The position numbers were made by a program, and so were the translations under genes. The notes under the pieces are model-generated. The model saw only the letters and a program-made list of their open reading frames with translations, searched no databases and was not told the DNA's origin. From contig WAKX01000032.1 of NCBI GenBank assembly GCA_015523125.1, forward strand, positions 1-64,000: a DNA stretch of 64,000 nucleotides, in the 5' to 3' direction. Shown piece after piece: positions 22,270 through 23,609 of the stretch (positions are counted from its first letter, which is position 1; every line of letters starts with the position of its first letter). The stretch is from DHVE2 group archaeon (lineage in GTDB: Archaea; Thermoplasmatota; Thermoplasmata; Thermoplasmatales; Aciduliprofundaceae).

Positions 22270-23007
22270 TTATGCGGATATTTCTTCATTCAGCAGTTCC
22301 GCGTATTTTTCTTCCACTATCACATCAAGTTTGTCGAGATACATCTCTTCGAATTTCCTTTCTATTGTCACTCTGGTGAAGTTTGCTACTCGTGCCACCA
22401 TGTCAAAAATCTCCTTGTACATGGTATCATACGCTCTTTTCAATGTAACTCCAGGAGAGTTTAACATTTTGTCGCTATCAACTGTTACGTATGTGCCGAG
22501 GTCGTTCTCCTTTACTTCTCTCAAAGCTTCCATGGCCTTCTCTCTCCTGCTCGCCTCCAGAGAGAACGGCAGGACGAATATGGCCATCATTGGCTTTTCT
22601 CCCCTTTCTTTCAGTATTTTCATTGCTTCCAGCGCACCACCGGTTCCCATGCCGCCGCCCAAGGCCGCGATGATGATAACCGCGTCCGCGTCGTTTGTCT
22701 CTTCTAAAATCCAGGCTTTGGATCTATCTACGACATACCTTGCAACATTTACATAACCAGCTGTGTCCTTGTGGGTTCCCAAAACCTCCTTGCCGAGCCA
22801 CATCTTTTTGTCTACGGCAAGGCCCATCACGCGCTCGTCCACATTCACGGCTATGGTCTTCACCCCGGGAATCTTCCTTGCTGAGATGTACTCCGCGATT
22901 TTGCCCGCAGCTCCACCAAAGGCCAGCACCTTCACCTTCGGTGAGATTCCGAACTCTTCCTTCACCATTGCCCGTATTCTTTCCTTTATTTCATTCATAT
23001 TTTCCAT
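22270..23007 (-). CDS. FtsZ/tubulin-like GTPase-domain protein (short)
   Basis: About 245 residues that align with the GTPase half of FtsZ. The phosphate loop AALGGGMGTGGALEAM (tubulin signature with M for T) is at ~110-125; KVKVLAFGGAAGKIAEYI forms the first strand and loop, KTIAVNVDERVM the second, and FVLPFSLEASRREKAMEALREV the T5-T6 region. The usual C-terminal domain of ~100 residues is missing; only a charged helix remains. The ATG at 23007 is set by AAGGAGA 8 nt upstream. It follows the RHH regulator by 30 nt. It may be a division, shape or regulatory FtsZ relative; polymerisation is doubtful without the second domain. Confidence 0.82.
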   Translation of the reverse strand: MENMNEIKERIRAMVKEEFGISPKVKVLAFGGAAGKIAEYISARKIPGVKTIAVNVDERVMGLAVDKKMWLGKEVLGTHKDTAGYVNVARYVVDRSKAWILEETNDADAVIIIAALGGGMGTGGALEAMKILKERGEKPMMAIFVLPFSLEASRREKAMEALREVKENDLGTYVTVDSDKMLNSPGVTLKRAYDTMYKEIFDMVARVANFTRVTIERKFEEMYLDKLDVIVEEKYAELLNEEISA

Positions 23008-23037
23008 GGCTCCCATCTCCTTCTGGCATATTTATCA

Positions 23038-23418
23038 TTAACGCCTGAACCTCTCCTCCCTCACACGTTCCTCCTCACTCAGTCGGAGGCCATTCAAAGA
23101 GGATACATAACCCTTCAAGATATTCTCGAGGATTCCCTCTCTAACTATGGTTTTCATCACATAGTTGATTATTTCCTCAACGCTACTGAAATATCGGTAT
23201 TCAACGTAATCTTCCAGCACCATCAGCAGGCGGTCCCTGATGTCCACGCGCACCCCCTGGTTCTTGAGTACGCCTCTGTCAACCATCTTCATGTATTCCA
23301 TCACTGCAGTTCTTATCAATTGTGAGCGGTTCTGATACTCTGGGTGCCTCGCTAGAAAATCATCCATTTCGTCCAGCTCCACGTCGGTTATCCTCAGTGA
23401 TATCCTTGTATCATCCAT
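23038..23418 (-). CDS. Ribbon-helix-helix transcription regulator upstream of FtsZ-like gene
   Basis: A 126-residue protein with an N-terminal RHH domain (TRISLRITDVELDEMDDFLARHPEYQNRSQLIRTAVMEYM) and a C-terminal helical domain of ~75 residues, perhaps for oligomerisation or ligand sensing. RHH proteins bind DNA as dimers with a beta-ribbon. AGGTG lies 6 nt before the ATG at 23418, chosen over a GTG at 23427. The promoter TATA (GTTATATATAC, 23457-23467) is followed upstream by several TGAC half-sites, which suggests autoregulation of this RHH-FtsZ operon. Confidence 0.82.
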   Translation of the reverse strand: MDDTRISLRITDVELDEMDDFLARHPEYQNRSQLIRTAVMEYMKMVDRGVLKNQGVRVDIRDRLLMVLEDYVEYRYFSSVEEIINYVMKTIVREGILENILKGYVSSLNGLRLSEEERVREERFRR

Positions 23419-23436
23419 GACCCACACCTGTTTGCA

Positions 23437-23569
23437 TGACAGATATAGTCAAAGAAGTATATATAACTTTCGTTGAGTGACAAAAATCGTCATAAAAAGT
23501 CATACAGATGGTAGCACGGAAATGACGTTGTATTGCCGTTGTGCATGCAACATGTTTCCGTTGTATGAC
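23437..23569. promoter_or_regulatory. Promoter region with repeated TGAC/GTCA half-sites
   Basis: Upstream of the RHH gene, TGAC or GTCA occurs at 23437, 23478, 23489, 23499, 23523 and 23566. The pair at 23478-23492 is an exact inverted repeat with a 7-nt spacer, placed just upstream of the minus-strand TATA at 23457-23467. Two longer inverted pairs are GTCATAC (23499-23505) with GTATGAC (23563-23569), and CGGAAA (23517-23522) with TTTCCG (23555-23560). Likely operator array for the RHH protein; this is inference. Confidence 0.45.
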
Positions 23570-23609
23570 ACTCGGCGACGGAATTTTGTACCACTGTAAA
23601 GTTACAAAC

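Follow-up and report, generated by a model that had tools for sequence, protein, structure and literature searches.

The window, by which we mean the whole 64,000-nucleotide stretch of archaeal DNA analysed here, carries on its minus strand a gene for a tandem ribbon-helix-helix (RHH) protein followed, after a gap of 21 nt, by a gene for a short relative of FtsZ (Table 1). A preliminary description of this DNA had placed the two in one operon, in the order known from haloarchaeal cdrS-ftsZ2; both reading frames and their order stand as described, and as far as sequence can tell they do form an operon. An SCP2-like gene and a cobO-type adenosyltransferase gene are the same-strand upstream neighbours of the pair, and a dCTP deaminase gene converges on the stop codon of the FtsZ-like gene at a distance of 2 nt.

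Table 1. Features of the RHH/FtsZ locus and its upstream region (positions in the window)
Feature	Position	Strand	Remarks
Tandem ribbon-helix-helix regulator gene	23038..23418	-	126 aa; alternative GTG start at 23427 gives 129 aa
RHH repeat 1, residues 5-44	23287..23406	-	CdrS model match, E 4e-4
RHH repeat 2, residues 55-93	23140..23256	-	Divergent here, clear in relatives; hhalign against repeat 1
Short FtsZ-like gene, 248 aa	22270..23016	-	GTPase domain, then an H7-type C-terminal helix; lacks T7 loop and C-terminal domain
T4 phosphate-binding loop GGGMGTGG, residues 120-127	22636..22659	-	Sequence, alignment
C-terminal helix, residues 192-247	22276..22443	-	AF2 model and alignment; stands where T7 and the C-terminal domain would follow
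Candidate operator, direct repeat GTCATA-N4-GTCATAC, 10-bp period	23489..23505	+	Lies upstream of the RHH promoter's TATA box
Further candidate half-site TTGTATGACA	23561..23570	+	Repeat analysis, enrichment
Variant half-site TTGCATGACA	23432..23441	+	Repeat D1; near expected transcription start
TATA box TTATATATA	23458..23466	-	TATA columns conserved in 13 upstream regions
BRE-like CGAAAG	23467-23472	-	Beside TATA box

The haloarchaeal CdrS model NF058555, which has 61 positions and a cut-off of 100 bits, matches the RHH protein at residues 5-44 only; at 20.3 bits (E 4e-4) the protein falls outside CdrS as that model defines it. It also falls outside a definition by operon with a full-length ftsZ2, its partner being the short FtsZ. 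The preliminary description had seen an extra C-terminal domain on the regulator. The extra stretch is present, but is a divergent second RHH repeat to judge from two lines of comparison. With profiles taken from an alignment over 31 relatives, hhalign matches the second half to the first with a probability of 91.8 (P 7e-7), colinear over 39 columns, and Pfam RHH models detect the second repeat in relatives (residues 53-94 of L083, 58-99 of L082 and 59-97 of L225), with two Pfam RHH stretches in each of L082, L225 and L236. The window protein itself scores below the Pfam RHH cut-off, whereas its relatives score above it; their matches, together with the repeat-to-repeat comparison, would place it in the RHH superfamily, and we regard it as a tandem RHH protein whose second half is no unrelated domain. 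Comparison of the RHH profile with PDB sequences gave nothing significant.

The partner matches the Pfam tubulin model PF00091 at 1.9e-14, above the curated cut-off. It also matches the first half of the FtsZ model TIGR00065 (profile positions 17-203 of 353) at 9.5e-19, far under the equivalog cut-off. Its T4 loop, the signature singled out in the preliminary description, is one residue off the superfamily signature GGGTG(S/T)G. A single-sequence AF2 model (pLDDT 72.8, pTM 0.68; residues 60-97 below 50) has a GTPase fold and then one helix, and the leading PDB fold matches to it in Foldseek are FtsZ structures (E 1.7e-9). By its PF00091 match, its T4 loop and these fold matches, the protein belongs to the FtsZ/tubulin superfamily, placement outside which would have refuted the preliminary description.

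We aligned five full-length FtsZs with 21 short proteins and two further short ones from f15. The short rows keep T1, most of them T4 and all of them an H7-like helix; beyond this they have one more helix or a low-complexity tail before they end. No short row has the C-terminal domain or the NxDxxD T7 loop that the full-length rows show, and the window protein ends ∼30 residues after H7. The preliminary description had taken it for a GTPase domain alone, of ∼245 residues, and had proposed structure prediction for the missing domain; the length of 248 residues and the model just described bear this out. The sequences thus show a loss of T7 and of the C-terminal domain, and without them the protein does not qualify as a division FtsZ (FtsZ1 or FtsZ2); nor does it qualify as an FtsZl1, with coiled coil and large C-terminal domain, ending as it does after one helix. 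In FtsZ filaments the T7 loop completes the GTPase site of the neighbouring subunit, so that normal filament turnover is not expected of the short FtsZ. The short FtsZs of f27 and f28 (L083, L086, L087) carry, after a linker, a conserved GFIGLR/GFIGYR tail that is reminiscent of FtsZ C-terminal adaptor peptides.

Spread and ancestry of the pair

Within the window's own family, a search of 61 relatives found the FtsZ-like gene, at an identity of at least 48%, in 13 of 18 genomes; it was undetected in the other five, one of which is 99% complete. A 97%-identical copy lies at locus L037 of a DHVE2 relative; compared with the 97%-identical relative, the FtsZ-like gene has a dN/dS of 0.045 and the RHH gene one of 0.010. 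Across the Thermoplasmata class, RHH profile A1 matches 275 of 300 genomes. Other families and deeper relatives supplied 32 RHH loci, of which four are repeat fetches of a place already counted; in 27 of the 32 the RHH gene is followed by an FtsZ-like frame without C-terminal domain, of 248-295 aa and in one case 226 aa.

Counts made from the FtsZ side, unbiased by RHH, agree with the preliminary description, which had made its reading depend on conservation of the pairing in relatives. An RHH gene lies immediately upstream at all 20 short-FtsZ loci fetched with an FtsZ query (13/13 in the family and 7/7 further afield) and at 16 of 17 loci fetched with PF00091 from f11, a family of 42 Methanomassiliicoccales-like genomes; at the seventeenth, L192, an RHH match lies 117 nt upstream of the ORF. 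Under the same procedure, full-length FtsZ loci have an upstream RHH at L005 and L030 only. Since dN/dS is low and the pairing is kept at every one of the family and further loci, the pair is more than a chance neighbourhood. It is also carried by f15, with partners of 294-351 aa, and four-base stop/start overlaps between the two genes in several lineages suggest coupled translation. One FtsZ without C-terminal domain, L254, has no RHH neighbour. Outside the class, FtsZ-adjacent RHH matches are single-RHH proteins of 79-91 aa followed by an FtsZ2 with T7 (L214-L216), one further RHH/FtsZ locus (L219) being cut by the contig end; some tandem RHH proteins there (L209-L212, L217 and L218) stand, within the stretch fetched, without an FtsZ beside them. 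Another divergent FtsZ-like family recurs class-wide (L247-L253, L256, L257); its members, of ∼260-370 aa, have a C-terminal domain, lack an RHH neighbour and often carry GLGGETG as T4 loop.

Is the pair an ancestral version of CdrS-FtsZ2 or a divergent one? The preliminary description allowed both, and asked whether a full-length FtsZ is encoded elsewhere. PF00091 has six matches in the window's genome, the short FtsZ and five open frames of 349-404 aa, one of the five having its own RHH gene directly upstream. At this locus, L005, the gene for a 118-aa tandem RHH protein runs four bases into that for a 343-aa FtsZ, whose T7 is NIDISD. L005 looks like the equivalent of cdrS-ftsZ2, and the window pair is a second, divergent operon beside it. 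Six FtsZ-family proteins (L001-L006), three of them FtsZ1-like, are a large set.

In a 62-row tree with several long branches, the 24 short FtsZs lie on one side of a branch (100/97). A 46-row tree of GTPase-core columns only, with the longest rows dropped, again has its 17 short FtsZs on one side of a branch (98/98); in this unrooted tree FtsZ1 rows hold together (100/99), FtsZ2 rows lie between FtsZ1 and the short clade, and a union of short FtsZ with FtsZ2 is not rejected (p-AU 0.556, no outgroup). Both trees were built without CetZ rows and without outgroup, and within the short clade two long branches (f15, f1) meet and were flagged by the tree program. In this comparison with FtsZ1 and FtsZ2, one that the preliminary description had proposed, the short FtsZs form one clade inside the FtsZ superfamily, separate from every full-length FtsZ; they probably arose from the FtsZ2 side, as far as unrooted trees can tell. 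We reject an ancestral form of CdrS-FtsZ2, given the separate RHH and full-length FtsZ operon in the genome, the clade that the short FtsZs form, and the single-RHH proteins with full-length FtsZ2 outside the class. Because the CdrS-FtsZ2-like operon sits elsewhere in the same genome, the pair is best seen as a derived paralogue, and of the two earlier options only divergence survives.

The best PF00091 match in f11 (E 7.8e-38) is weaker than that of canonical FtsZ. In many f11 genomes another RHH operon encodes a divergent FtsZ2 of ∼280 aa with its C-terminal domain retained (L226-L239, from f11 and Aciduliprofundum-like genomes), and the idea that the short FtsZ is their only FtsZ was dropped. 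In f11 genomes with a single hit a second FtsZ may simply sit below threshold, so that no such claim is made for these either.

Promoter and candidate operator

The intergenic region before the RHH gene measures 188-230 nt in the window's family. Its TATA and BRE-like elements probably mark the promoter, which evidently carries a TGTCATAC-type candidate operator that was recovered independently in other families. GTATGAC/GTCATAC is present in all 11 family upstream regions (13 minus two near-duplicates); these hold 29 copies of GTCATA, compared with 2.07 in shuffles (maximum 8; 200 dinucleotide-shuffled sets), and five direct GTCAT-N5-GTCAT repeats, compared with none in 200 shuffles. In an independent set of 11 regions from other families GTATGAC is again the commonest 7-mer (9/11; maximum 5 in mononucleotide shuffles). 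The site is not evident in the upstream regions of f3, most f6 and f15, and f11 has related TGTC-type sites, found by eye. The aCcr1 box of Sulfolobales resembles TGTCNTAC.

In the window's genome GTCATRNNNNGTCATR matches once, at 23489..23505. The exact dyad occurs once per genome in this genome (G000), G011 and G013, always at the RHH promoter; in G007 it lies elsewhere, and in G009 solely at another gene. A dyad site common to G009 and G012 is found upstream of a phosphate permease-like gene. Neither this site nor that of G007 is conserved in the window's genome, and both were set aside as second genomic targets.

Among 77 upstream regions of full-length ftsZ genes, GTCATAC is found in 9, compared with 1.2 in shuffles (maximum 4). 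The site occurs in this way, as GTATGAC, upstream of ftsZ1 in f15, f27 and f28. We take this as no more than a lead, since in f15 the RHH promoters are without it. A palindrome, TGTCNGACA, is present at 7 of 13 CdrS-type RHH promoters and, across the phylum, at 11 of 77 full-length ftsZ promoters, compared with 0.195 in shuffles (maximum 2), and is a candidate CdrS operator. It often reads TTTGTCAGACAAA and is seen at L004 (upstream of 1435), L005, L030, L214, L215, L225, L031, L033, L109 and L156. At L004, the RHH-less ftsZ of the window's genome, the promoter has both site types, whereas its relatives L028, L031 and L033 show the palindrome only. Because the TGTCATAC type marks window-type promoters and the palindrome CdrS-type promoters, the two operons apparently rely on distinct sites that share a TGTC core.

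Possible roles of the short FtsZ

Why is an RHH regulator encoded together with an FtsZ that has neither T7 nor C-terminal domain? Our tentative preference, to which we give slightly less than an even chance, is an autoregulating tandem-RHH factor with an FtsZ-derived protein-binding subunit, a sensor or co-regulator that forms no polymer. The operon would be a paralogue of archaeal cdrS-ftsZ2 that dates back to, or nearly to, the ancestor of the Thermoplasmata class, and its RHH factor would control it by binding TGTCATAC-type sites in the operon's promoter. The short FtsZ would build no normal protofilament, the shared GTPase site not being completed; as a protein-binding subunit it would originally have sensed GTP or the state of FtsZ, passing this to the co-produced RHH factor and adjusting its hold on the operator. 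We infer the DNA binding by RHH, its contact with the short FtsZ, the thing sensed and the direction of control; the AF2 model of the RHH protein is poor (pLDDT 52). A regulatory rather than polymer role, as the preliminary description proposed, is what fits best.

In the Thermoplasmataceae (f6), hhalign identifies the partner ORF as a homologue of the GTP-type short FtsZ (probability 98.4, E 6e-15), but its T4 loop is gone (for example GFGGNFSQ). Of ten g13 pairs eight were saturated; the other two, with usable dS, give a dN/dS of 0.053 and 0.090. The GTP loop has thus decayed in a protein under purifying selection, although such selection does not tell what a protein binds. Because the loop decayed while selection held, nucleotide use may have become dispensable, with partner binding kept.

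All 44 f6 genomes keep the RHH gene, the copy in G220 having stops. PF00091 has no match in 11 of the 44, in agreement with the absence of FtsZ from Picrophilus, Acidiplasma and Ferroplasma given in the available text of PMC10936438. SepF is absent from the five of these 11 genomes tested, and no recognisable short FtsZ was found in the nine examined (G216 and G220 standing outside). In seven of the nine an ORF of 157-171 aa follows the RHH gene, with a short overlap (L064, L118, L120, L126, L133, L134, L197), and in the other two there is none. This ORF is under purifying selection (0.11-0.20); its match to the f6 partner profile (probability 0.8, E 0.065) is too weak for a claim that a shrunken short-FtsZ remnant persists in FtsZ-less genomes, and it was counted for neither side. 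Since the Ferroplasma-like G025 and G031 keep RHH without any partner ORF, RHH can work alone. Two readings fit the f6 pattern: the partner was lost together with FtsZ, or it decayed until it could no longer be recognised. Against a partnership we count these two genomes, the lone L254 protein, the five family genomes without detectable short FtsZ, the families in which TGTCATAC is not evident, and G007 and G009, where the exact dyad lies away from the RHH promoter.

The strongest rival, serious though rather unlikely, is a filament cap: with its top, nucleotide face retained, the short FtsZ would cap or poison filaments of full-length FtsZ and thereby tune division, and RHH would be an autoregulator only, like CdrS. 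A GTPase face kept in most families, with T7 and C-terminal domain missing, has the geometry of a one-sided cap, and full-length FtsZ is also present in most genomes with a short one. The FtsZ-less f6 genomes, where the short FtsZ is unrecognisable and RHH persists, fit as well, although this loss may be a single event. However, Thermoplasmataceae that still have FtsZ have lost the T4 loop, which belongs to the capping face, and yet conserve the protein, and f11 is without canonical FtsZ (it is divergent where found), yet keeps the short-FtsZ motifs. The same loss of the nucleotide loop under purifying selection argues against assembly through another surface, such as the long C-terminal helix, in division or membrane remodelling, and the loci read have no constant membrane or motor gene beside the pair. 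Such a new polymer, which we think quite improbable, would fit the intact T4 loop of most families, and for FtsZl1, which has no recognisable T6-T7 or C-terminal domain, a novel mode of polymerisation has been proposed, with no polymerisation as the less likely alternative (PMC2875224, in the text available).

Two further arrangements would make the pair a module of a familiar kind. Gene order, overlap and operator repeats resemble those of RHH toxin-antitoxin modules, with RHH as antitoxin and autorepressor and the short FtsZ poisoning FtsZ; the pair is class-wide, however, largely follows families and is under strong purifying selection, and it is the supposed toxin that decays while the supposed antitoxin stays alone, so that we hold this very improbable. 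Least probable of all is a DNA-partition module like ParMRC or TubZRC, in which RHH would bind a centromere and the FtsZ relative would be the motor. An RHH adaptor, a cytomotive NTPase and nearby repeats do make a partition layout, but this motor would be without T7 and C-terminal domain, its GTP site is lost in Thermoplasmataceae, and the sites lie at the operon's promoter, the exact dyad being confined to it in the three genomes named above.

A bolder form of the sensor or co-regulator reading is doubtful as a whole. A tubulin-superfamily GTPase domain stripped of its polymer half would have become the sensor subunit of a transcription factor, reading FtsZ or GTP state and feeding back to division-gene promoters; one family would then have lost GTP binding, so that the class as a whole would span a gradation between a GTPase and a pseudo-GTPase co-regulator.

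Known systems and significance

The pairing of RHH with ftsZ2 is itself already known. In haloarchaea an RHH gene lies directly upstream of ftsZ2, and CdrS acts as a transcription factor that binds 18 chromosomal sites (PMC7439475, PMC8406309); ftsZ2 is paired with a parD-like gene across archaea (PMC8178401), in each case as given in the portions of these papers available. The window pair likewise has its RHH gene directly upstream of an ftsZ-family gene. It differs in that the CdrS model has 61 positions and FtsZ2 is full length, whereas here RHH is tandem and FtsZ is without T7 and C-terminal domain, and in that a separate CdrS-FtsZ2-like operon is present in the same genome. In TubZRC and ParMRC, too, a DNA-binding protein is paired with an NTPase. 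SegAB is a two-gene system of DNA-binding protein and NTPase with RHH in SegB, according to the accessible part of PMC12284271. All three differ from the window pair in NTPase family; here, moreover, the polymerisation parts are missing and the sites lie at the operon's own promoter. FtsZl1 and FtsZl2 are non-canonical FtsZ relatives, FtsZl1 being without a recognisable FtsZ C-terminal domain; as described in the available text of PMC2875224, however, FtsZl1 has a long coiled coil and a further C-terminal domain, whereas the window protein stops shortly after H7 and pairs with RHH, and FtsZl2 has a ∼300-aa alpha/beta region that the window protein lacks. In the literature, which we covered incompletely, we found no description of a pair of RHH and FtsZ without C-terminal domain in Thermoplasmata, and no report of its class-wide spread, tandem RHH or operator.

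'FtsZ present' calls in Thermoplasmata or Methanomassiliicoccales-like genomes may rest on a protein unable to be the ordinary division FtsZ. The class-wide pairing of RHH with half an FtsZ suggests a cytoskeletal protein turned into the partner of a gene switch. RHH factors beside ftsZ genes are the best-known division regulators in FtsZ-using archaea, and we know of no signal that they read. A class-wide second operon with a likely non-polymerising FtsZ domain is a candidate for that signal input, one that can be tested, and its hosts include Thermoplasma and Aciduliprofundum, which we take to be cultivable.
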